A DNA stretch of 64,000 nucleotides. Source: an uncultured Pseudomonadota bacterium (GTDB lineage Bacteria > Myxococcota_A > Bradymonadia > Bradymonadales > Bradymonadaceae). The notes beneath the pieces are model-generated. The model did not search any database. It was not told the origin of the DNA and saw only the letters and a program-made list of their open reading frames with translations. Location of the stretch: positions 1-64,000 of the forward strand of contig CAJXPB010000009.1 of NCBI GenBank assembly GCA_913057905.1. Reading direction: 5' to 3'. The translations under genes and the position numbers were made by a program. This document shows positions 44,608 to 57,202 of the stretch, in pieces (position 1 is the first letter of the stretch; every line of letters starts with the position of its first letter).

Positions 44608-44931
44608 ATGCGGATGGTTGCAATGCAGTCCAGAGGTTCACGTCTACTCCTGGCGTTCGGGGTCGCGATCGTGATGACCTCGGCGGCCGGATGCTCGATG
44701 GATCTGTATCAGGAGTGTCGGCCGGATCCGAGAATCGAATGTGGCGACAACGACCGATGTGTGTCGGATCCCGATTTTCAGTGTGAGAGTCGAGTCTGCG
44801 GGCGGCTGGAGGCCGGCGAAGGCTTTTGTACGAAAAGCTGCGACGCGGACGAAGACTGCCCGAACGGTGAGTGTGAACCGATCGTCCCGGGCGGAGACCC
44901 GTACTGCATCCCGCAGGATCAACTGAACTGA
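44608..44931 (+). CDS. Small cysteine-rich lipoprotein
   Basis: A 107-residue protein with a lipoprotein signal (MTSAAGC) and ten further cysteines in the mature part, enough for five disulfides (for example ECGDNDRCVSDPDFQCESRVC and CTKSCDADEDCPNGEC). The pattern resembles the small EGF/knottin-like lipoproteins common in Myxococcota. It lies 62 bp before the first TPR gene of the Glt-like block and may be transcribed with it. The start could be 44608, 44614 or 44623. No function is known. Confidence 0.7.
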   Translation: MRMVAMQSRGSRLLLAFGVAIVMTSAAGCSMDLYQECRPDPRIECGDNDRCVSDPDFQCESRVCGRLEAGEGFCTKSCDADEDCPNGECEPIVPGGDPYCIPQDQLN

Positions 44932-44993
44932 AGCTGTGACGCATGCCGGCGCTCGGCCGGACTGTGATTCGATGTTTGCTCTGGAGTGTTGCT

Positions 44994-46592
44994 ATGATTC
45001 GACGCTTTGTTGCCGTCGCTCTCCTCGGCATCTGCCTTCCCGCTTCGGCCGTCGGGCAGACGATGGAGTTTAGCGAAGAGGAAGTCGAAGAGGGACAGGC
45101 GAAGTCGTCGGAGACATCCGACGGAAAACTCGCCGAAAAGATGGCGAAGGCGGTGTCGCTGTCCGACAACGAGAAATATCGGCAAGCGAGCCGGCTCTTC
45201 TACGAGATCATCCAGAAGGCAGGAGATACCCCGCGCGGCCAGGAGGCGCGCTTCGAACTCGGGAAGACCCTCTATCGGATGGAACTCTATCAGGGGGCGC
45301 TGGCACAATTCGGTCGGATCGTCGAGGCGGGCGAAGGTCATCCGTACTTCATTCCGACCCTGCGCGGCTTGCTTTCGCTGATGGATGTCCTGTCGGCGGA
45401 TCCGGCGTTGCGCGAGTATCTCGCCGCGTATGCCGAACGGTTTCCGAGAGAAGTCCCGGAGGAGAGCCGAGATCGATACGCCTATTATGTCGGCCGGTAT
45501 TTCCACAGTGAACTCTCGGTCGACAGGGCCGCCGAGATGTTCGATGCGGTCGATCGTGACAGCCCGTATTTTGGAAAAGCCCGGTACATCAAGGGGATCA
45601 CGTACGTCGCCAACTATCAGGCCGAACCGGCCGTCTCGGCCTTTAAGACCGTCCTGCGTCACCTCGTCGACGAGCGCGAGCAGCGGGGAGGGCTGACCCA
45701 AGAGCAGCAGAAGTTGCGCGAGTTGACCCATCTGGCGATGGCGCGCGTCTTCTATTCGACGGGCGACTACAAGACGAGCCTCAAGTACTACGACAAGGTA
45801 AAACGTGAATCGCCTCGATGGGCCAAGGCGCTGTTCGAGAAGGCCTGGGCGTATTTTCAGACCGATGCCTACAACGAAGCGCTGGGCAACCTCCATTCGC
45901 TGAATTCACCGTTTTTTGCCAACGCCTACTTTCCCGAAGGCCCGATCCTCTCGGGTCTGCTGTACTTCTACAACTGTCGATACGACCAGGTGCGCCGAGA
46001 GCTCGAGACCTTCGAGCGGATGTATCAGGGCCTGAAAGGGGACATGCAGGCCGTGCTCGACACCCACTCCGATGCGACTGCCATGTTCGAGTGGTACCAG
46101 CGTCTGCGTGCCGGTGAGGTCGATCTCGACCGGCGGGTCTACAGGATCCTGCAGTCGGCCGTCGATGACCGGCAGGTTCAGTCGGCCGTCGAACTGGTGG
46201 GTCTGGCAGACGAGGAGCTCGCCAAGATGGAATCGATGCCCAAGTCGTGGCGGGACGCCCCGCTGGGTCAAACCCTGCTACAGGAGGCCTCCGTGGCACA
46301 GAGTTTCGCCATCGACGAGGCCGGCTCGCTGATCCGCCAGCGCCTCGAGCGACAGGTGCGCGAGCTCGACCGGCTGATCAATGAAAAGAAGCGCATCCTC
46401 ATCGAAGTGGCCAAGGCCGAGAAGGGCGCCATCGAAGCGGATATCCGCGCCGGGCAACGGGTCGAACGCGATGATCAGGAGGCGCCTCTGAAGGTCACCG
46501 ACGAAGATCTCTACTGGAAGTTTCGCGGGGAATACTGGCGAGACGAACTGGGACACTACGTCTTCAACGTCGAATCTCGGTGTAAGCGCTGA
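44994..46592 (+). CDS. Periplasmic TPR protein, GltC-like
   Basis: A 532-residue protein with a cleavable signal (FVAVALLGICLPASAVGQ). It contains TPR-like helix pairs (YRQASRLFYEIIQKAG, YQGALAQFGRIVEAG, YKTSLKYYDKVKRESPRWAKALFEKAWAYF) and ends in a coiled coil and the motif DLYWKFRGEYWRDELGHY, which I associate with the GltC-type proteins of gliding myxobacteria. GltC is a periplasmic part of the outer gliding complex in Myxococcus. The start at 44994 has GGAG 8 bases upstream. It is 20 bp before the GltD-like gene. The name is tentative; the exported TPR nature is firm. Confidence 0.65.
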   Translation: MIRRFVAVALLGICLPASAVGQTMEFSEEEVEEGQAKSSETSDGKLAEKMAKAVSLSDNEKYRQASRLFYEIIQKAGDTPRGQEARFELGKTLYRMELYQGALAQFGRIVEAGEGHPYFIPTLRGLLSLMDVLSADPALREYLAAYAERFPREVPEESRDRYAYYVGRYFHSELSVDRAAEMFDAVDRDSPYFGKARYIKGITYVANYQAEPAVSAFKTVLRHLVDEREQRGGLTQEQQKLRELTHLAMARVFYSTGDYKTSLKYYDKVKRESPRWAKALFEKAWAYFQTDAYNEALGNLHSLNSPFFANAYFPEGPILSGLLYFYNCRYDQVRRELETFERMYQGLKGDMQAVLDTHSDATAMFEWYQRLRAGEVDLDRRVYRILQSAVDDRQVQSAVELVGLADEELAKMESMPKSWRDAPLGQTLLQEASVAQSFAIDEAGSLIRQRLERQVRELDRLINEKKRILIEVAKAEKGAIEADIRAGQRVERDDQEAPLKVTDEDLYWKFRGEYWRDELGHYVFNVESRCKR

Positions 46593-46612: not shown

Positions 46613-49600
46613 ATGAGCATGAGACGACCACAATTCGATGAACCGACTCCGCAGTCCAACCTGGCCGTGTGGCTGGTGGGCGGCCTGATTGCGGCGATCG
46701 GAGCCTTCGGGTCGGCCACCTCGGCGGTTGCGGCCGAGCAGAAGAAAGAGCGCAAGGTCGATGTCTACGAGGCCGAGCAGAAGCGCGAGCGGCCGAGCCT
46801 CAAAACGGAGGGCGAGGGGGCCAAGGACTTCAAGACCGAGGAGTTCATCGAGGAGAAGAACTTCGAGAGTGTCAAAAAGCAGGACGAGGCGATCGTTCGG
46901 CTACAGGATCTACTCGAGTCGACCCCGGAGGACGACCCCAAACGCGCCGAGATCCTGTTCAATCTCTCGGAGATGTACTGGGACAAATCGAAGTACTACG
47001 AGATGTCGGCCTTCCGGAAGCAGGACGAATGCTACGAGCTGAAGGATGCCGGTGAGACGGGTCGGGCCCAGGCGTGCCAGCGTCAGATGGACCAGATGCT
47101 CGAAGAATCGAAGCGCCAGCGGGCCGAGGCGGTCGAGCTGTACAAACAGATCCTTCGGAACCATCCGAACTTCAAGAATCTCGACCGGGTTCTGTTCTAT
47201 CTGGGGACCAACTTGCAGGAGGTCGGCCGCCACGAAGAGGCCATCGAGATCTTCAAGAAGCTTCTGTCGGACTTCCCCGACACCAAATACACGCCCAATG
47301 TGCTGCTCGCGATCGGCGAATACTTCTTCAACCAGAAAAAGAACCCCGAACGCGCGCTGAAGTTCTACCAGAAGGTCGGTGAATTCGAGGACTCGAACGT
47401 CTACAGCTACGCCCGGTACAAGGCAGGCTGGTGCTACTTCAACATGGAGCAGAAGGACCGGTCACTGGATGTCTTCATCGACGTCATCGACTACGCCAAA
47501 GCCCACCCGCAGCAACCGAATGCGAAGGCGCTGGTCAGCCAGGCCCGAAAGGACATCGTCCTGACCTACTCGTTCATCGGGTCACCGCAGAAGGCGATCC
47601 CGTTCTTCGAAGATCTGACCGGCGGCGACACCGAGATCGTCCGGCAGATGACCGAGCGGCTGGCGGTCCAATACGCCGACAAGTCGAAGTTCGCCGCATC
47701 GAATACGATGTACCGCAAGCTGATCCAGCGCAATCGCAGCAGCACGCGGACGCTGGAGTACCAGTATGAGATCGTGCGCAATCACTCCAGCCAGAGCGCC
47801 TACAGCAAGGACACCCTCGAAGAGATCATCAAGTTGATGAAGCTCGTGCAGTACGCCGAGGAGGGGAAGTTCGAGGACTACGACAAGGAGACCTTCAAGG
47901 AGACCTGGACGCAGGCCGAGCAACTCGTGCGTCAGTGGGCGACCCGCTACCATCGCGAAGCTCAGGTCACCAAAAGCGATGGTCTCTACAAGATGGCGTA
48001 CTACCTGTACTCGAACTATCTTGAGACGTTCGAGGACAGTGAACACATCTACAAGATGACCTTCTTCAACGGGGAGATTCTGTATTACCTGGAGAGCTGG
48101 AAGCGGGCCGCCAAGGCCTACGACCGGGTGCTCGAGATCGACGATGAGGGAGAATGGACCAAGGAGGCGGCCCACGGCCAGGTCCTGGCCTACTTCAATC
48201 TCATCAATACGTCCGAGGAGCGCGCGAACCTGGAGGACCCGCTCCGATTTGAAAACCGGGACAAGGTTCAGGAAGTCCAGGAGGGCGGCTCGGAGGAAGA
48301 CGACCCGATCCCCGAGAAAAAGGAGATCGCGGACCTCAAAAAGCAGCTCATCGAAGCGTGCAAGGATTACGTCGAATACGTGCCCGACGGCGAGCGGATC
48401 GTCGACGTCAAATACACGATGGCCCGCGTCTACTACGAGCACAATCACTTGAAGAAGGCCGTCGAATACTTCGAAAACATCGCCTTCAATCACCCGGATC
48501 ACCGTCTGGGAGTCATTGCGGCGAACCTTCATTTGGATTCGCTGAACCTGCTCAATGATTTCAAGACCCTGGGCAAGGCCGTCCGCCGCTACCAGAACGA
48601 ACAGCCGATCGACGACGAGGAGTTTTCATCGACCGTCGCGAAACTCGACGAGGCGATCTCCTTCAAACTTTGTCGTCAACACGAAGACAATGACCGGTGG
48701 CGCGAGGCCGCAAACTGCTACGTCGAATTCTATCGGCGATTCGACAACTCCGACTATGTCGACGAAGCGCTCTACAACGCCGCGCTCGCCTTCGAGCGAA
48801 TCAAGGAGCTGGGCAAGGCGATTCAAGTCCGGATCTTTTTGTTGAAGGCACGACCGGGATCTCCGTACGCTCCCGAGACACTCTTTAACATCGGCGCGAA
48901 CTACCACGCGCTGGCCGTCTACAGTAAGGCGGCGAATTTTTACGAGCAGTTCGTCAAAAACTTCCCCGACCACGAGAAGGCACAGGAAGCGCTGGCCAAC
49001 GCGGCGACCTTCCGACAGGGGCTGGGTCAATACGACCGGGCCATTTCGGATTTCGAGAAGTTCCTGGAGCTGTTCGGCGACGACCCCGAGTACGACAAAA
49101 AAGTCGCCGATGTGGCCTTCCAGATCGCCAAGATCCTGGAGAAGCAGGACAAGGGATGGGAGGCCCTGGAGCAGTATCGAGAGTATGTCGACACCTACGC
49201 CGACAAGGGCACCCTGGACCGGCTCCTTCAGGCGCACTCCAACATCGGGATGTTCTTCTGGAACCACGATGACCGCGACCAGGCGCTGCTGGAATTCGAG
49301 CGGACCCTGGAGGTCTACAACGACCTGTCCGACGAACAGCGGACTTCCCTGAGCGACGGTCGAGATGCGGCGGCCCGTGCCAAATTCATGCGCGGCGAAG
49401 ATGTCTATCAGGAGATGGCCGAAATCACCGTCGAGTCCTCCAACGAAGAGGAGCTTCAGCGACGGTTCAAAGACAAGCTCGAGGTCGCCCAGAAAGCCCA
49501 GAAGATCTACGAGGAAGTCATTAAATTCAGGCGGCCGGACTGGGCGATCGCGGCTCTATTCAAGATCGGCGCACAGTATCAGAATTTCGCCGAAACCGTC

Positions 49601-50041
49601 CGGAACAGCCCGGTGCCCGAGCGGCTGAACTACAATCAAAAAGAGATCTACCGCGGGCTGTTGGAGGATCGTGCGTCGATGGTCGAGGCGAAGGCCGTCG
49701 ATGCCTACAAACGGGCGCTCTCCGTGGCCAAAAAAGAGAGCTGGTTCAACGAGTACAGCCGCAAGGCCGAGGTCCGGCTGGCGGACCTCCGTCCTGGTGA
49801 GTTCCGGAAACCCTCGGAGCTACGGGCCCGCCCGACGTATCTCGTGGCTGGATTTACGGAGGCGGGATTCATGGATGAACTGCAGGAAGAGGAGCGACGC
49901 CTCGACGACCTCGGTTCGGGTGAGCCCGAGGCCGAGAGCGTCGAGCGGCAGACGGCCCCGACAGACGCGAAGCAAGACCCAAAAAAGTCCGAAGCCGAGT
50001 CGACAGACACCGATAAATCATCCGCTGGGGGGACGTCGTGA
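46613..50041 (+). CDS. Large periplasmic TPR protein, GltD/AgmU-like
   Basis: A 1142-residue protein with a signal peptide (LVGGLIAAIGAFGSATSAVAA) followed by more than a dozen TPR units (for example HPNFKNLDRVLFYLGTNLQEVGR, KSRYEEAIEIF-type helices at 47161 onward, and FPDHEKAQEALANAATFRQGLGQYDRAISDF near 48963). The C-terminus is an acidic Lys/Glu/Thr tail. Size, export and position directly before a TPR lipoprotein match GltD (AgmU), a roughly 1200-residue TPR protein of the M. xanthus gliding machinery, found in the periplasm. AGGA precedes the ATG by 8 bases. The long antisense frame of 316 residues within it is a shadow. Confidence 0.75.
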   Translation: MSMRRPQFDEPTPQSNLAVWLVGGLIAAIGAFGSATSAVAAEQKKERKVDVYEAEQKRERPSLKTEGEGAKDFKTEEFIEEKNFESVKKQDEAIVRLQDLLESTPEDDPKRAEILFNLSEMYWDKSKYYEMSAFRKQDECYELKDAGETGRAQACQRQMDQMLEESKRQRAEAVELYKQILRNHPNFKNLDRVLFYLGTNLQEVGRHEEAIEIFKKLLSDFPDTKYTPNVLLAIGEYFFNQKKNPERALKFYQKVGEFEDSNVYSYARYKAGWCYFNMEQKDRSLDVFIDVIDYAKAHPQQPNAKALVSQARKDIVLTYSFIGSPQKAIPFFEDLTGGDTEIVRQMTERLAVQYADKSKFAASNTMYRKLIQRNRSSTRTLEYQYEIVRNHSSQSAYSKDTLEEIIKLMKLVQYAEEGKFEDYDKETFKETWTQAEQLVRQWATRYHREAQVTKSDGLYKMAYYLYSNYLETFEDSEHIYKMTFFNGEILYYLESWKRAAKAYDRVLEIDDEGEWTKEAAHGQVLAYFNLINTSEERANLEDPLRFENRDKVQEVQEGGSEEDDPIPEKKEIADLKKQLIEACKDYVEYVPDGERIVDVKYTMARVYYEHNHLKKAVEYFENIAFNHPDHRLGVIAANLHLDSLNLLNDFKTLGKAVRRYQNEQPIDDEEFSSTVAKLDEAISFKLCRQHEDNDRWREAANCYVEFYRRFDNSDYVDEALYNAALAFERIKELGKAIQVRIFLLKARPGSPYAPETLFNIGANYHALAVYSKAANFYEQFVKNFPDHEKAQEALANAATFRQGLGQYDRAISDFEKFLELFGDDPEYDKKVADVAFQIAKILEKQDKGWEALEQYREYVDTYADKGTLDRLLQAHSNIGMFFWNHDDRDQALLEFERTLEVYNDLSDEQRTSLSDGRDAAARAKFMRGEDVYQEMAEITVESSNEEELQRRFKDKLEVAQKAQKIYEEVIKFRRPDWAIAALFKIGAQYQNFAETVRNSPVPERLNYNQKEIYRGLLEDRASMVEAKAVDAYKRALSVAKKESWFNEYSRKAEVRLADLRPGEFRKPSELRARPTYLVAGFTEAGFMDELQEEERRLDDLGSGEPEAESVERQTAPTDAKQDPKKSEAESTDTDKSSAGGTS

Positions 50042-50097
50042 GCATACGAGACGCTTTGAGATCGGCTCGCGGAGTCAGATGCCTGACAGGAGGAACT

Positions 50098-51450
50098 ATG
50101 ACACCTCGCACATGGATCGTTTCGGTCGTCTTGGTCGGGGTTGGGATGTTCGCCGGATGTGCGACGGCACCCGGCGACGTCGATGCCGAAACCAGCAAAG
50201 AAGCGAGGGGTGTGTCGACGAACACCGATGCCGTCGAGGAGTTCAATGCCGCCGTGGAGGCCTACAAATCCGACGAGGCCGAACTCGGCGAGGTGGAGTC
50301 CAGACTTCGAAAGGCGGTCAATATCGACCCGAATTTCGGCAAGGCATGGTTTAATCTGGGGGTCGTCCTGGAGAAACAGGGGCGTCTGGGGAAGGCGGAA
50401 TCGGCCTATCAGAAGTCGCGGAAGGCCGCGCCGAAGCTCGGCGATCCACTGGTCAACCTCGGGATGCTCGCGATGCGGCGGGGCAAGACCGACGAGGCGT
50501 ACGAGTACTTTGAAAAGGCCATCGGAGCCGAATCCTTCGATACCACGGCCCACAACAATCTGAGCGTTCGTTACAGACAGCAGCAGCAGTGGGAAAAAGC
50601 GGTCAGCCACGCTCGCCAGGCGCTGGCTGGTGACTCGCAAAACGTCGGGGCGTACGCCAACCTCGCACGCACCTACTATCAGATGGAGGCTTACGATCCG
50701 GCGCGTCTGGTCCTTTTGAACGCCCTGGAACTGACGAAAGAGAAGGGCAGCCAGGCTCACCGCGATGATCTCCACAACATCTTCGGGCTGGTCGAACTCG
50801 CCCAAAACGACGTCTCGAGTGCCATCTCGGAGTTTTCGAAGTCCCTGGAAAACAATGGTAATTTCGTTCCCGCTCGCATGAATCTGGGTGCGGTCATGCT
50901 CAACGTCCGCGACTTTGAAGCGGCATCGAAGCACTTCACAAAGGTGCTCGATCTTCAGCCGGAACACACCGAGGCGCGGATCTCGCTGGCCGTCGCCGAA
51001 CGGTCGATGGGCAACTTGAATGAGGCGCGCGCGATCTATCGGGAGATCCTCGACGACCATCCCGAACACCCGATGGTGCACTACAACCTTGCGGTGCTCG
51101 AGCACGAACATCTGGCCCGGAAGGCCTCTCAGGGAGCCGGCGAGACGGCGCCGGAGGGGGCTGTGGCCCAGATGGACTGGACCATCGGAAACCTCCAGGA
51201 AGCCGTGGACCATTACGACAAGGCCATCGACTTCTATCGAAACTTCCTCAACTACGCCGGCGATGAGATGGCCGAACAACGGCAGGAGGCCAAGAATCGA
51301 ATCGACGAGGTGACGAAACTCCGTCAGGCGACCCGCGAACAGATCCCGGAGTTGAAGAAACAGAAGGCGCAACTGCAGCAGTCGGACGGCTCTACCGGCT
51401 CGGAGGCCGGCGGTTCCGCCTCCAGCGAGGAATCCACCTCGCAGCAGTGA
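50098..51450 (+). CDS. gltE: TPR lipoprotein, GltE/AglT-like
   Basis: A 450-residue lipoprotein (signal with lipobox FAGC) containing at least six TPR repeats: FGKAWFNLGVVLEKQGRLGKAESAYQKS, KLGDPLVNLGMLAMRRGKTDEAYEYFEKA, VGAYANLARTYYQMEAYDPARLV and others, then an acidic tail. GltE (AglT) of M. xanthus is an outer-membrane TPR lipoprotein of similar size needed for gliding and follows gltD, as here. The start at 50098 has AGGAGG 5 bases upstream; the open frame back to 50038 overlaps the gltD-like stop and is not used. The lipid anchor, TPR content and neighbours support the call; direct similarity was not computed. Confidence 0.75.
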   Translation: MTPRTWIVSVVLVGVGMFAGCATAPGDVDAETSKEARGVSTNTDAVEEFNAAVEAYKSDEAELGEVESRLRKAVNIDPNFGKAWFNLGVVLEKQGRLGKAESAYQKSRKAAPKLGDPLVNLGMLAMRRGKTDEAYEYFEKAIGAESFDTTAHNNLSVRYRQQQQWEKAVSHARQALAGDSQNVGAYANLARTYYQMEAYDPARLVLLNALELTKEKGSQAHRDDLHNIFGLVELAQNDVSSAISEFSKSLENNGNFVPARMNLGAVMLNVRDFEAASKHFTKVLDLQPEHTEARISLAVAERSMGNLNEARAIYREILDDHPEHPMVHYNLAVLEHEHLARKASQGAGETAPEGAVAQMDWTIGNLQEAVDHYDKAIDFYRNFLNYAGDEMAEQRQEAKNRIDEVTKLRQATREQIPELKKQKAQLQQSDGSTGSEAGGSASSEESTSQQ

Positions 51451-51685: not shown

Positions 51686-51952
51686 ATGCGTGATTTGTGC
51701 GCCGTCTTCGTGGTGATCGCCCTGTTGGGATTGCCGGCTGTGGCCGCGGCTCAGGGTGGATCTGAGTCGGGCGGCTCAACCAAGGTCAAAGAGAAGACGA
51801 CCTACGACTTCGATGGGGACGATGTGACGGGAAATCTCGTCAAACCGAATGAGTCGAATATTCAGGCGCAGCAACATGGAAAGACCAGCAGCCTGATCAC
51901 CATTCGGTCGGACTTTATCCCGGAGATGCTCAAGACCGTGGAAGACCTCTAA
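51686..51952 (+). CDS. Small exported protein in the gltF position
   Basis: An 88-residue protein with a clear signal peptide (AVFVVIALLGLPAVAAAQ) and a mature part of about 68 residues: TTYDFDGDDVTGNLVKPNES, then SSLITIRSDFIPEMLKTVEDL. Small proteins with this DD-VTG-L-KP then I-R-DF-PE-L pattern commonly sit next to GltG-type genes in myxobacteria, and gltF lies between gltE and gltG in M. xanthus. It should be periplasmic. The ATG at 51686 follows a GAGGG. The 235 bp upstream show no other gene; a weak hairpin GTAGC-CTGAAA-GCTAC with four T residues at about 51547-51568 might be a partial terminator. Confidence 0.6.
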   Translation: MRDLCAVFVVIALLGLPAVAAAQGGSESGGSTKVKEKTTYDFDGDDVTGNLVKPNESNIQAQQHGKTSSLITIRSDFIPEMLKTVEDL

Positions 51953-52009: not shown

Positions 52010-53998
52010 ATGACGATGCTGTTTGACATCATTGAGGATGGGGAAGTTGTTTCCACCCGGTCCGTGGATCGCGACATCGTCAAGGTCGGCACACTGGGAA
52101 GCTGCCACCTGAAATTCGATGATCCGAGCGTCTCGCGGTTTCATGCCCGGATCGAGCGGGATGGCGACGAATGGACCATCATGGACCTGGGCAGCGCCCG
52201 GGGCACATCGGTCAACGGCGAGGACGTCGACGAGACCACCATCCAAGAGGGCGACGAGCTCCAATTTGGAGACGTCCTCGTCCGACTCCGGTTCGGCGAT
52301 GCCTCCGAGGCGACCGTCGCCGGGGATGGAACGGTCGCCACGCCGGAGGGCCGACGCGTTCAACCGTATACGATGGAGGGGTACTACGACGATGCCGACA
52401 ACTACATTCCCGGCTACTACGACGAGCACGGCGAATACCACGTCGGGTACGGATACGAAGATGACGACGGCGAATGGGTCGTCGCCCATGGCTACTACGA
52501 TCCGAGCGGCGAGTGGGTCCCCACCGATGGGCCCGTCGAGTCGGGCGGCGGCTCCGGCGGGGCCGGACGCGCGGATCGCCCACGAGATCGCGACGAATAC
52601 ACCGAGACATTCTTCCGGGAACAGGGCGGAGATACGCTCGAGATCGCCCATCTCTGGGGCGACCATGTGCTGATGGTCGAGAGTTTCGCGTCGCCGCGCA
52701 CCGTGACCATCGGTCCCTCCAAGGACCAGGATTTCATCGTCGGCAAGGACCTGACCGACCAAGAGCGGCCCCTGGTGCTGTTCGACGAGTCCGGCAACGA
52801 GTACGGCCTCGTCATCACATCGGAGATGACCGGGCACCTCGAGGTCGACGGCGAGGCTCTGAGCCTCGAAGAGGCGATCGAAAGGGGCCTGACGCGCAGC
52901 GCTCCCGGGGTCCATGGGCAGGTTCTCGCGCTGACTCCCCACACGAGTGCCCGGATCGAATGGCGCGACAACGTCTTTCTGTTCCACTTTACGTCGATGC
53001 CCAAAGGGGTGGGCACCAGTTTCGGGGTCGATACGCAGGCGATCCCCTACTTTGCCATCAGCGCCGCCCTCCACATCGCGCTGCTGATCATGGCGATGAG
53101 TATGCCCGGCGACGCCGGGGACCTCTCGCTGGAGCGGCTCGACGAGGATGACCGGTTCGTCGAGATGATGCTCAAACCGAAAGAGCAGGAAAAGAAGGAT
53201 TCGTTCTTTGACCAGGGCGACGAAGAAAAGGCCGCCAAGGCAAAGGGCGAGGAGACCAAGGCCGGCAAGGAATCGGCCGACCAGACCGACAAGGAGATGG
53301 CCATCAAGGGTCCCCCCGACAACGCGACTGCAGAGGTGCGCAAGGAACACAACAAGAAAGTCGCGATGAACGCCGGGATTAACAAGGTGTTTCAGTCCGA
53401 GGGTGTCTCGTCGATGTTCGGGAGTGCTTCCGAATCGGTCGGCAGTGACGCCATCCACGCGCTCGGAAACATGCAGGGCGCCTCCAAAGGCGACGCGAAG
53501 GGCTTCGGCGGGCTCGGCCTGTCGGGCGCCGGCCGCGGCGGCGGCGGAGGTATGAGCGAAGAGGGACTCGGCATCGGGCGCGTCGGCACGGCCGGCCGTG
53601 GCGGCGGAGGACGCGGGGGCAAAGGCTACGGGGAAGGCGCCGCCGATATGGGTGACAAGGGCAAGGCCCGACCTCAGGTCGTCCCCCAGCGCCCCGACGT
53701 CACCGGTTCACTCGACAAGGAAATTATCCGGCGGGTCGTGCGTCAGCACCGCCGAGAGATCAAATTTTGCTACGAGCAGGAGCTGCAGCGAAATCCCGAA
53801 CTCTCCGGCCAGGTCAAGGTCAAGTTCACCATCTCGCCGAGCGGCGACGTCGTCAGTGCCATCGTCACCGAGTCGACCCTGGCCAACCGAAAGGTCGAAC
53901 AGTGCATGCAGGGTAAAATCCGCCGCTGGACCTTCCCCTCGCCGAAGGGCGGCGGCATCGTCGAGGTCAACTACCCCTTCAACTTCTCCCCGGGCTGA
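52010..53998 (+). CDS. gltG: GltG-like protein: FHA domain, transmembrane helix, AgmX/PglI (TonB-like) C-terminal domain
   Basis: A 662-residue inner-membrane protein. Residues about 20-95 are an FHA domain (VGTLGSCHLKF, SRFHARIE, LGSARGTSVNG), which binds phosphothreonine. Residues 124-174 are acidic aromatic repeats (GYYDDADNYIP, GYYDEHGEY, HGYYDPSGEW). A second folded part follows (about 205-335, LEIAHLWGDHVLMVESF). A transmembrane helix lies at about 344-366, then a Lys/Glu stretch and a Gly-rich linker (505-555). The last 95 residues are the AgmX/PglI domain: VVRQHRREIKFCYE, GQVKVKFTISPSGDV, C, RRWTFP. In M. xanthus GltG has an FHA domain and a TonB-like periplasmic end. GGAG lies 5 bases before the ATG. 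Confidence 0.85.
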   Translation: MTMLFDIIEDGEVVSTRSVDRDIVKVGTLGSCHLKFDDPSVSRFHARIERDGDEWTIMDLGSARGTSVNGEDVDETTIQEGDELQFGDVLVRLRFGDASEATVAGDGTVATPEGRRVQPYTMEGYYDDADNYIPGYYDEHGEYHVGYGYEDDDGEWVVAHGYYDPSGEWVPTDGPVESGGGSGGAGRADRPRDRDEYTETFFREQGGDTLEIAHLWGDHVLMVESFASPRTVTIGPSKDQDFIVGKDLTDQERPLVLFDESGNEYGLVITSEMTGHLEVDGEALSLEEAIERGLTRSAPGVHGQVLALTPHTSARIEWRDNVFLFHFTSMPKGVGTSFGVDTQAIPYFAISAALHIALLIMAMSMPGDAGDLSLERLDEDDRFVEMMLKPKEQEKKDSFFDQGDEEKAAKAKGEETKAGKESADQTDKEMAIKGPPDNATAEVRKEHNKKVAMNAGINKVFQSEGVSSMFGSASESVGSDAIHALGNMQGASKGDAKGFGGLGLSGAGRGGGGGMSEEGLGIGRVGTAGRGGGGRGGKGYGEGAADMGDKGKARPQVVPQRPDVTGSLDKEIIRRVVRQHRREIKFCYEQELQRNPELSGQVKVKFTISPSGDVVSAIVTESTLANRKVEQCMQGKIRRWTFPSPKGGGIVEVNYPFNFSPG

Positions 53999-54504
53999 TG
54001 AAGATGGAGGGGCTGTTTGGAGTACTTGTTGACGTTTTGAACGTGTCTTGCGTGCTCGGTGTTGCGGTCGGCTTGTCGACGGCCGGATGTGCGACGAAAC
54101 CACAGGTTCCAGACGACGTGATTCCGGAGGGCCGGACGTGTGAAGAGCTGCTGACGGAGAAGAACGAAAAGAGCGCAGAGGACGGCGATCAGAGCTGCCC
54201 GGAGATACCGAAGGCTGCCATTCAATCGGCCATTGAGAAGCACCGTGAACAGTTTATTTCATGTTACGAGAACGCACTGAAGTCCAATTCGGAGCTCGAA
54301 GGAAAGGTGACCTACTATATCGAGTTGGAGGACACCGGTGAATTCAAAAGAGTTCACCCCTGTCAGACGAATATCCCCCACAGAGGTATCCACGATTGTC
54401 TGAAGAACGAGATTCTCGACATCGATATACCGGTAGGGGAACGAGCCATGCCGCTCATAATTTTCTACCCGTTCGTGTTCACACCGAATGACGATTCAGA
54501 ATGA
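53998..54504 (+). CDS. Lipoprotein with free-standing AgmX/PglI C-terminal-like domain (array member 1)
   Basis: A 168-residue lipoprotein (lipobox STAGC) whose mature part matches the pattern of the GltG C-terminal domain: IQSAIEKHREQFISCYENAL, LEGKVTYYIELEDTGEF, then HDCLKNEILDIDIP. An extra cysteine (VHPC) lies between the two usual ones. The ATG overlaps the GltG stop codon by one base (TGATG), so it is translationally coupled to gltG. It probably sits in the outer or inner membrane facing the periplasm. Base composition is lower in GC than neighbours. Alternative start 54004. The role is inferred from domain and context only. Confidence 0.7.
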   Translation: MKMEGLFGVLVDVLNVSCVLGVAVGLSTAGCATKPQVPDDVIPEGRTCEELLTEKNEKSAEDGDQSCPEIPKAAIQSAIEKHREQFISCYENALKSNSELEGKVTYYIELEDTGEFKRVHPCQTNIPHRGIHDCLKNEILDIDIPVGERAMPLIIFYPFVFTPNDDSE

Positions 54505-54528
54505 ATCGCTAGGCACGTCGTCGAATGC

Positions 54529-54655
54529 GAGTTCCGCGCCCCAGGAGATCCAAGATGAACGACACAATCAAAGAGACGCGCTGGGTCGTGGGAGGTCTCC
54601 TTTGCCTGGGGATTTTATTGTTAGTTTCAAGCTGCGCCACGACGGGCGGTTCCGG
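54529..54655 (+). repeat. Direct repeat, copy 1 (127 bp, RBS and signal peptide of array member 2)
   Basis: This segment, starting GAGTTCCGCG and ending GGTTCCGG, recurs at 55104-55230, exactly 575 bp downstream, with seven mismatches by eye (about 94% identity). It covers the leader, ribosome binding site and the first 33 codons of the lipoprotein gene. Confidence 0.93.
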
Positions 54656-55082
54656 CGGAGCGGGAAACGCGAAGGACACTACTGAGGTTACTGCCGAAGA
54701 TAAGAAAGAGGGGCGTCCCGGCAGCATGAGCTGTGAGAGGACTATTGAAAAGTACGGAGGCTCCGCTCGAGGGAACGTGCCAGACTCTTTCAAAAAGGAA
54801 CTTGATGCTGAGGTTCGTCAACTGAGGTCTGCGCTGAGTAGATGCCACGAAAAAGGGATGAAAGCGGCAGGGGGGGCGCTCAACGGGAAGGTCTATTTTC
54901 ACCTTGTGGTTGGCACGAGTGGAGATGTCTTATCGGCAAAGCCGTGTAACTCAGGTCTCGGTTCTGAGCCGATGCTGGATTGCATGGAGGAACACCTCTC
55001 GTCTGTCGAGGGAGTTGAAACCGAGCAACGATCCCAGGTTCTATACCCGTTCAATTGCACGCCGAAAGATAGTTCGGAATGA
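54555..55082 (+). CDS. Lipoprotein with AgmX/PglI C-terminal-like domain (array member 2)
   Basis: A 175-residue lipoprotein (lipobox VSSC, then CATTGGS). The mature domain keeps the layout of the GltG C-terminus: a helix ending LSRCHEKG, LNGKVYFHLVVGTSGDV, and MLDCMEEHL, with an extra cysteine (AKPC) as in members 1 and 3. The aromatic residue after the first cysteine is His here, where GltG and members 1 and 3 have Tyr. AGGAGATCCAAG precedes the ATG. The signal peptide DNA is almost identical to that of member 3, while the mature parts differ widely. Confidence 0.72.
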   Translation: MNDTIKETRWVVGGLLCLGILLLVSSCATTGGSGGAGNAKDTTEVTAEDKKEGRPGSMSCERTIEKYGGSARGNVPDSFKKELDAEVRQLRSALSRCHEKGMKAAGGALNGKVYFHLVVGTSGDVLSAKPCNSGLGSEPMLDCMEEHLSSVEGVETEQRSQVLYPFNCTPKDSSE

Positions 55083-55103
55083 GTCATCGACCACGTCGTC
55101 TTC

Positions 55104-55230
55104 GAGTTCCGCGTCCCAGGAGATCCAAGATGAACGACACAATCAAAGAGACGCGCTGGGTCGTAGGAGGTCTCCTTTGCGTGGGGATTTTGTTGTTTGT
55201 CCCAAGCTGCGCCACGACGGGCGGTTCCGG
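55104..55230 (+). repeat. Direct repeat, copy 2 (127 bp, RBS and signal peptide of array member 3)
   Basis: Second copy of the repeat at 54529-54655. It starts GAGTTCCGCG and ends GGTTCCGG, with the ATG at the same offset in both copies. Confidence 0.93.
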
Positions 55231-55660
55231 AAGCTCGGAGAATGCGAAGGCATTCGAGATCGCTCCGGAGGACCGGTGTTCCTCTCCGTTGCCCCCTCGA
55301 TCGAGTCCTGAGGGTCAGGGGGGTGAAGCAGAGACAAAAAAGAAATTCCCTACTCTTTCGAAGCGGCTATCTGCGAACCTGAATGAACGGAGAAGCAAGC
55401 TCATAAGTTGCTACGAGGAAGCCCTCGAGACCGATTCGAATATTGAAGGCGCCGTGCGCTTCCACTTTCGCGTGAAAGAATCAGGGGGCGTGCACGATGT
55501 AAGGGCATGCTACACAGAAATTCACTACGAGCCCTTCATTCGCTGCATTGAGAATGAGTTGAGTCGTGTTGATCTGGGAGAGCTTGGGGTTTCCCGCGAG
55601 ATGCCAGTCTTGAAGACATTCAACTTCGCGGTCGGCTCAAAACCAGAAAGCCAGGATTGA
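55130..55660 (+). CDS. Lipoprotein with AgmX/PglI C-terminal-like domain (array member 3)
   Basis: A 176-residue lipoprotein (FVPSC lipobox-like site, then CATTGGS). After a variable linker it has LNERRSKLISCYEEALETDS, IEGAVRFHFRVKESGGV, an extra cysteine (VRACYTE) and FIRCIENEL, the same pattern as the C-terminus of GltG and array members 1 and 2. The N-terminal 30 residues are almost identical to those of member 2, at DNA level too, which points to a recent duplication or recombination. Proline at -2 of the lipobox is unusual and may affect lipidation. Confidence 0.72.
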   Translation: MNDTIKETRWVVGGLLCVGILLFVPSCATTGGSGSSENAKAFEIAPEDRCSSPLPPRSSPEGQGGEAETKKKFPTLSKRLSANLNERRSKLISCYEEALETDSNIEGAVRFHFRVKESGGVHDVRACYTEIHYEPFIRCIENELSRVDLGELGVSREMPVLKTFNFAVGSKPESQD

Positions 55661-55687
55661 TTCCTCTTAGACCCGCAGGGCGACATA

Positions 55688-56242
55688 GTGAGTGCAGCTT
55701 CGAAATTGAGCAGCTTGAGACAGATGGGCAGCGTGGGCCTGCGTAGTTCTCTGTTTGTAGTTGTCTGGTCAATGTTGTTGGTCTCTGGCTGCGCGACGAC
55801 CGGCGGATCGGAGACGGAGCGCGAGATACCGCCGGAGGTGACCGACCATACGGTCGACCAGCGATCCGAGGATGCGCGGAGTCAACGGCCGCGGGTCGAG
55901 GTCGTCATCGACGGGAACGTCTTCGAGCCGCAGGCGACGGCGAGCTACGAGGACGACATCCGTCGCGGTGCGGTGCAATGCTACCAGTCGGGATTGCGCG
56001 GGGCCGGCGGCGACCAGGAGGGTTCGGTCGTCTACGAGGTGATCGTGACCCGCAACGGGTACGTGGCCGGAGCCGACCTGATGTCGACGGCGCTCAATCA
56101 CGACGACATCCAGAGCTGTGTGGAGCATGTCATCTCGCAGATTCGCTACGATGTCCCCGACGCTGGGCGACCACTGTACAGAATCTTTTTTCGGCTCGAT
56201 TTCTTCATCGAAACCCTCGTGCCCACCGAGCCTCCCGTTTGA
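55688..56242 (+). CDS. Lipoprotein with AgmX/PglI C-terminal-like domain (array member 4)
   Basis: A 184-residue lipoprotein (VSGC lipobox, CATTGGS). The mature domain has YEDDIRRGAVQCYQSGL, QEGSVVYEVIVTRNGYV and IQSCVEHVISQIRYDVP, the two-cysteine form like GltG, without the third cysteine of members 1-3. GC content is back to the level of the neighbours. The GTG at 55688 was used; an ATG at 55724 is possible and would still leave a full signal sequence. It lies 27 bp after member 3 and 36 bp before the TPR lipoprotein gene. Confidence 0.72.
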   Translation: MSAASKLSSLRQMGSVGLRSSLFVVVWSMLLVSGCATTGGSETEREIPPEVTDHTVDQRSEDARSQRPRVEVVIDGNVFEPQATASYEDDIRRGAVQCYQSGLRGAGGDQEGSVVYEVIVTRNGYVAGADLMSTALNHDDIQSCVEHVISQIRYDVPDAGRPLYRIFFRLDFFIETLVPTEPPV

Positions 56243-56278: not shown

Positions 56279-57202
56279 ATGACGCGTGAAGCACCGAACA
56301 GATCACTGAGTGGTGCGATCGTCGTGGGCTTGCTGGCAGGGCTCTGGCTTATGACCAGCGGTGTCACCTGCGACCAGGATCGGGCCCTTGCGGTTCAGCG
56401 ACTCAATGAGGGGCTGGCGGCGTATAAGCGCGGTCAGACCCAGGATGCGGTCGCCAAACTCAAGGAAGCTGCTCAGGCCGACGCCGATTTTGCCAAGCCG
56501 CGCTATCAGCTCGGTCAGATCTACGAGATGAAGTACGAAGACGCCCGGGAGGCCGAGCGGTTCTACCGGGCGGCTCTGGATATCCACCCCGAGCGGGCGG
56601 AGTACGGGTATGCGCTGGGTCGGCTCCTCGTCTCGCAAGGTGACTACGAAGAGGCGATCAGAGTGCTGAAAGACACCGTCGACACCCATTCGGGACACGC
56701 GAAATCCTGGTTCCGTCTCGGCCAGGCTCAGGAGGCGATGGGCCACCATCCCAAGGCCGTCGAAGCCTACATGAAATCGATCGAGGCCGACCCGAGGATG
56801 ACCATCGGAGAGGATGACACGGGAGGCGTGGCCTATCACGCCCTGGGGGATATCTACGTGACATTCGGATTTCCTGACAAAGCGTTGGAAGTCTACGAGA
56901 ATGGGCTCAGCAACAATGCAGAGGCAGCTCGGCTGCATCGCGGCCTCGGGGTCGCGCAGTTGGAGCTCGAAAGGTACGAGGCGGCCGCGGAGAGTTTCCG
57001 CAAGGCGCTCGAGCTCGGGGGCGATGGCGGCGCCGCCTACTTCAATCTCGCAGCGGCGCTCGAAGGCGCCGGCCGACCCGACCAGGCGATCGAAGCCCTG
57101 CAGAAATACCTCGATGTAGCCGATCCGACGGACCGAGCCCGCACCTCGGTCGCCCAGGGAATGATCCAGAAGCTCAAAGCCCAGGGCGACGCGTCGAACT
57201 GA
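56279..57202 (+). CDS. TPR lipoprotein
   Basis: A 307-residue protein with a signal sequence ending TSGVTC (probable lipidation) and about seven TPR repeats in tandem: LNEGLAAYKRGQTQDAVAKLKEA, RYQLGQIYEMKYEDAREAERFY, GYALGRLLVSQGDYEEAIRVL, WFRLGQAQEAMGHHPKAVEAYMKS and so on to the C-terminus. GGAGG lies 9 bases before the ATG. It follows the AgmX-domain lipoprotein array and precedes the giant TPR gene, so it probably serves the same envelope complex. No M. xanthus counterpart is named with confidence. Confidence 0.8.
   Translation: MTREAPNRSLSGAIVVGLLAGLWLMTSGVTCDQDRALAVQRLNEGLAAYKRGQTQDAVAKLKEAAQADADFAKPRYQLGQIYEMKYEDAREAERFYRAALDIHPERAEYGYALGRLLVSQGDYEEAIRVLKDTVDTHSGHAKSWFRLGQAQEAMGHHPKAVEAYMKSIEADPRMTIGEDDTGGVAYHALGDIYVTFGFPDKALEVYENGLSNNAEAARLHRGLGVAQLELERYEAAAESFRKALELGGDGGAAYFNLAAALEGAGRPDQAIEALQKYLDVADPTDRARTSVAQGMIQKLKAQGDASN

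Follow-up and report, generated by a model that had tools for sequence, protein, structure and literature searches.

The DNA examined here (the window) covers the first 64 kb of contig C9 (CAJXPB010000009.1) in a 4.25 Mb genome of the family Bradymonadaceae, and the coordinates below are window positions on the + strand. It carries a string of glt genes, in which a small lipoprotein gene, gltC, a gltD-type tetratricopeptide repeat (TPR) gene, a gltE-type TPR lipoprotein gene, gltF/cglF and gltG are followed by four genes for predicted lipoproteins, termed LP1 to LP4, and then by a TPR lipoprotein gene. In gliding myxobacteria, GltG is thought to carry force from the inner-membrane motor towards the outer membrane. 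The gltG gene of the window (52010..53998; NF033760, E 1.2e-120; NF033768, E 4.9e-35, 119.5 bits) encodes an FHA domain, a single membrane span and a C-terminal TonB-like domain, referred to below as the GltG tail.

LP1 (53998..54504, 168 amino acids), LP2 (54555..55082, 175 amino acids), LP3 (55130..55660, 176 amino acids) and LP4 (55688..56242, 184 amino acids, or 172 when counted from the alternative start ATG at 55724) are four intact genes on the same strand, each with one GltG-tail domain, and make up the array reported directly after gltG, at 53998-56242, in a preliminary description made from the sequence alone. The ATG of LP1 shares one base with the gltG stop codon (the last base of that codon), and the gaps LP1/LP2, LP2/LP3, LP3/LP4 and LP4/TPR gene measure 50, 47, 27 and 36 bp, respectively. 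Because of this one-base overlap and the short gaps, LP1-LP4 are likely to be co-transcribed with gltG; promoter and terminator scans yielded signals no better than those in shuffled sequences.

A signal peptide with a lipobox was recognized in all four proteins, in agreement with their earlier designation as lipoproteins, these signals being judged by eye alone. The lipoboxes of LP2 (VSSC) and LP4 (VSGC) are good, and those of LP1 (TAGC) and LP3 (VPSC) less canonical; in each protein an alanine follows the lipobox cysteine. The signal peptide is also the sole hydrophobic stretch spotted by eye, and no inner-membrane helix for a TolQR/ExbBD-type motor was seen. LP1-LP4 are predicted to be outer-membrane lipoproteins.

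The assignment of the mature parts to the AgmX/PglI C-terminal domain family (NF033768, myxo_SS_tail), as first proposed, was borne out by two profile methods. Searches with NF033768 returned E-values of 1.1e-14, 8e-8, 8.5e-10 and 7e-8 for LP1 to LP4, respectively. Relative to the curated cut-off of 40 bits, LP1 scores clearly above (54.3), LP2 (32.3) and LP4 (32.5) lie below, and LP3 is borderline (38.6, or 40.2 with its frame); the LP4 orthologues of two relatives, G001 and G011, exceed the cut-off with 42.7 and 48.2 bits. When aligned by hhalign to a reference profile built from 41 tails (37 GltG tails among them), LP1-LP4 gave E-values of 1.1e-14, 2.5e-8, 1.3e-6 and 5.8e-7, respectively. 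A chance resemblance to the GltG tail is excluded by these two sets of values. The identity to the GltG tail is about 20% only, and on the GltG model NF033760, for which a score over 650 bits is expected, LP1-LP4 align to the tail end only with at most 33 bits, which places them outside the GltG family itself. In a Pfam scan of the four proteins no family scored above its cut-off, TonB_C had no match and no FHA domain was found.

Structure prediction, carried out on mature LP4, gave an AlphaFold2 model with a mean confidence score (pLDDT) of 88.6, from an input alignment of 22 rows that includes GltG tails, so that the model is not fully independent of them. Its best matches in the PDB are TonB and TolA tails (the top one being the TonB tail 6fip), at E-values above 0.003 and with DNA-polymerase chains interspersed. 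The model of the GltG tail (pLDDT 90.3) matches TonB tails more strongly than LP4 does, with a best E-value of 1.6e-4, and the GltG-tail profile picks up TonB by sequence (E 9e-5). As modelled, the LP4 domain has a TonB-type fold, as does the GltG tail.

The motif layout given in the preliminary description holds overall and differs in detail, the turn of LP3 being S-G-G and the second helix of LP4 reading C-V-E-H-V. The conserved cysteine pair of the tail domain is kept in all four proteins. Beyond the turn, LP1-LP3 have one more cysteine (VHPC, AKPC and VRAC), and another in the linker; the first reading had overlooked both, and these extra cysteines may form a second disulfide. The motif W-x-F/Y-P-x-P, present in 30 of the 30 GltG tails compared, is absent from LP1-LP4; this loss suggests that they probably do not bind exactly the same partner as GltG. 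The C-terminus of LP4 (56207-56239) reads IETLVPTEPPV, that of the G001 orthologue LETLIPEEPPV, and that of the G011 orthologue corresponds in part (REIFDPQAPPI). Its interpretation as a TonB-box-like segment was rejected, the match being loose, short, chance-prone and broken in G011.

A direct repeat, likewise missed at first, spans the LP2 region with ribosome-binding site, signal peptide and lipobox (54519..54675) and the leader of LP3 (55094..55250), both copies lying on the + strand. The two copies of 157 bp are 89% identical, and the identity of the mature LP2 and LP3 DNA is about 40-50%, which is what unrelated DNA shows when aligned. This pattern fits recombination that preserved the leader, with the mature part either diverging or being exchanged for another. 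The G+C content is 0.52-0.54 for LP1-LP3, 0.62 for LP4 and 0.64 for gltG.

The order gltG followed by a TPR lipoprotein gene is usual both for the class and for many genomes of its phylum, and the slot between these two genes was surveyed in the 18 assessable genomes of the window's family, gene calls in the relatives being based on open reading frames, G+C by codon position and homology. Intact detached tails occupy the slot in six of the 18, decayed remnants in two (G013 and G014, with in-frame stops), and the slot is empty in ten, where gltG and the TPR gene are about 23-304 bp apart. The six occupied slots hold one to four proteins with one to three domains each: the four lipoproteins of the window; single proteins in G001 (LP4 orthologue, 45% identity, E 6e-46), G011 (LP4-like orthologue, 33%, E 1e-24) and G010; two proteins in G008, the first with two domains; and a secreted three-domain protein, with no lipobox seen, in G007. 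The cysteine pair is present in every intact slot domain, and W-x-F/Y-P-x-P is retained in the three G007 domains, the G010 copy and the first G008 domain. Outside the family, the fetched loci showed no tail in the slot, and 77 named GltG loci held none beyond the members already counted.

In a tree of the tail domains, which is weak owing to 102 columns and very long branches, the GltG tail of the same genome clusters with the G010 copy (97/79) and, in G008, with two of the three slot domains (91/85). All G007 domains fall into a single clade (100/94), LP4 groups with the G001 and G011 proteins (94/84), and the placement of the long-branched LP1-LP3 is unresolved. Tail genes have been gained and lost repeatedly in the slot within one family, and several independent origins of the slot copies are likely, though not proven. 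Being intact in the window, G001 and G011, which represent three genera, despite 33-45% identity, LP4 appears to be under selection. Tandem duplication of gltG itself was observed at the gltG loci of G012 (L078, 5488-10131), where the whole gltF-gltG pair is duplicated, and G003 (L142, 8067-11743).

The preliminary description knew these domains, from M. xanthus, only as tails of membrane-spanning GltG and GltJ; a general restriction to such tails is not supported. Away from gltG, the window's own genome encodes four free-standing tails, two as predicted lipoproteins (C5:194216 and C6:244217) and two as secreted proteins (C8:66028 and C10:82523). The relatives searched contain 7-24 NF033768 domains each, many on small open reading frames, and a clear signal peptide with lipobox is present in eight of the 18 small copies fetched (L247-L264), namely L247-L251, L254, L256 and L257, the remaining copies looking membrane-spanning or secreted. 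These eight, with the own-genome member G000:C5:194216-194488 (L025, 9204-9836), belong to a family of about 200 amino acids with a lipoprotein signal, a linker and one GltG-tail domain, conserved in at least eight Bradymonadales genomes. Like LP1-LP4 its members are free-standing tails with predicted lipidation, but they are encoded by single genes away from gltG, and the C5:194216 copy keeps W-x-F-P-x-P. In G005 (L245, 6474-8413; C1 ~3,410,470-3,412,410), adjacent secreted proteins bear four and two tandem GltG-tail domains, again away from gltG. Uniqueness of LP1-LP4 as free-standing tails was accordingly discarded, such copies being common in the order; the unusual feature is their position between gltG and the TPR gene. 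No description of lipidated AgmX/PglI domains was found in the open-licence literature.

The array had also been placed where gltH would lie. No homologue of CglE (GltH, NF033755) occurs in the genome (best E 1.95; none at E 0.01), and the usual direct 3' neighbour of gltG, the TPR lipoprotein gene (56279..57202; TPR families, synteny), is still present. In the Myxococcus locus L217, a CglE-family gene (E 5e-52) comes next after a gltG that reaches 1069 bits against the GltG model; the CglE-family protein is called GltH in M. xanthus (PMC3169522). GltH/CglE resembles LP1-LP4 in being encoded directly after gltG there, in its length of about 200 amino acids and in its reported occurrence in outer-membrane vesicles (PMC3169522), but it is an outer-membrane barrel by published description. 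None of LP1-LP4 matches CglE and CglE shows no tail-domain signal, and they were rejected as homologues or replacements of GltH.

Among known systems, other NF033768 members share the homologous domain and its paired cysteines with LP1-LP4, whereas in the latter no other domain accompanies it in the predicted lipoprotein, and four such genes form an array; LP2 and LP4 score below the cut-off, and the motif is lost. GltG shares the tail domain and is the adjacent gene; its FHA domain, membrane span and glycine-rich periplasmic arm are all missing from LP1-LP4, which bear a predicted lipid anchor instead. The C-terminal domains of TonB and TolA have the same helix-strand-strand-helix-strand fold, and TonB tails account for most of the top PDB matches of the models; LP1-LP4 differ in lacking a motor-bound inner-membrane helix and a Pfam TonB_C match and in possessing paired cysteines.

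The remaining genes of the string are gltC (44943-46592; NF033756, E 5.4e-91), the gltD-type TPR gene (46613-50041; TPR families) and the gltE-type TPR lipoprotein gene (50038-51450; NF033758, E 1.5e-41), all in an order conserved in relatives, and the gltF/cglF homologue (51686..51952; NF033764, E 4.4e-15), which lies directly 5' of gltG in relatives too. The small, cysteine-rich predicted lipoprotein 5' of gltC is encoded at 44608-44931, with a similar gene at the same place in relatives. Elsewhere in the genome (G000:C2 ~80,700-90,200; L024), a TolQ-family gene is followed by two TolR-like genes, recognized by eye only, and a second GltG-like gene; large TPR genes adjoin this group on C2, and it resembles an Agl/Nfs-type motor cluster.

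Published work describes M. xanthus GltG as TonB/TolA-like and interacting with the motor protein AglR (PMC3169522), with a proposed reach to outer-membrane partners (PMC5349195); GltA, GltB and GltC form an outer-membrane subcomplex, and how it connects to the remaining machinery is open (PMC4488436). Bradymonadales glide (PMC7188933), and among open-licence papers none was found that ties this glt cluster to their gliding.

The explanation favoured here, tentatively and at slightly under an even chance, assigns LP1-LP4 to the trans-envelope Glt machine as accessory parts on its outer-membrane side. Each would consist of a linker and one cysteine-paired TonB/GltG-tail domain, tethered by a predicted lipid anchor to the outer membrane and facing the periplasm, so that a tail copy would be permanently stationed where GltG, presumed to cross the periplasm, has to arrive. 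Their most likely binding partners would be other envelope parts, namely TPR proteins, outer-membrane barrels or the GltG/GltJ tail, and such binding may stabilize or tune that envelope contact. The domain and its fold, the one-base overlap with gltG, the recurrence of slot tails in a third of the family genomes and the intact LP4 orthologues support this explanation, as do the motor-type group in the same genome and the grouping of the G010 and G008 copies with their own GltG tails, which points, in a weak tree, to repeated recruitment beside gltG. Weighing against it, the genomes with empty or decayed slots suggest that these genes are dispensable for the cluster, and the frequency of the tail domain away from gltG means that the position may reflect birthplace rather than function.

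One alternative is unlikely, yet carries appreciable weight: LP1-LP4 may be by-products of local duplication, in which the gltG tail is copied into the slot now and then, gains a signal peptide, drifts and decays, and the copies would contribute little or nothing to the Glt machine. The patchy slots, the long, unresolved branches and lower G+C of LP1-LP3 and the loss of W-x-F/Y-P-x-P speak for such a history. Four intact genes with signal peptides, the cysteine pair in every intact slot domain and the intact LP4 orthologues in G001 and G011 speak against it. A by-product origin without function is possible above all for LP1-LP3; LP4 seems the best supported of the four as a functional protein, through those orthologues.

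It is improbable that the lipidated tails act as decoys or competitors that take the outer-membrane site of the GltG tail and thereby limit or release the grip of the motor. The homology to the GltG tail speaks for such a role, and the G007 and G010 proteins and the first G008 domain, which keep the motif, could play it; LP1-LP4, however, share only about 20% identity with the GltG tail, and their loss of the motif found in all GltG tails compared argues against simple competition with GltG. Still less probable is a separate function, for instance cell-cell or prey recognition, for lipoproteins that diverge fast, merely reside inside the glt operon and combine one leader with exchangeable mature parts. 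The conserved LP2/LP3 leader with its dissimilar continuation and the tandem array are in keeping with this, but no partner or immunity-like genes lie alongside, the mature portion has remained a GltG-tail domain and the genes are tightly packed in the glt string. Toxin-like transferred lipoproteins are not supported, given the lack of partner genes and a fold that is that of a binding domain.

In gliding motility it is still an open question how the Agl-Glt motor, with the peptidoglycan in between, contacts the outer membrane. Lipid-anchored or soluble tail copies in the glt string, gained several times in one family, point to a testable part of this contact, and the slot copies show a TonB-type domain detached from the motor and reused. 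A bolder proposal, held with low probability, is that the slot proteins constitute an outer-membrane receptor set that pairs with the tail of GltG (or GltJ), its copy number being tuned by local duplication; if true, such a set would represent a docking principle of the Agl-Glt system not described in M. xanthus.

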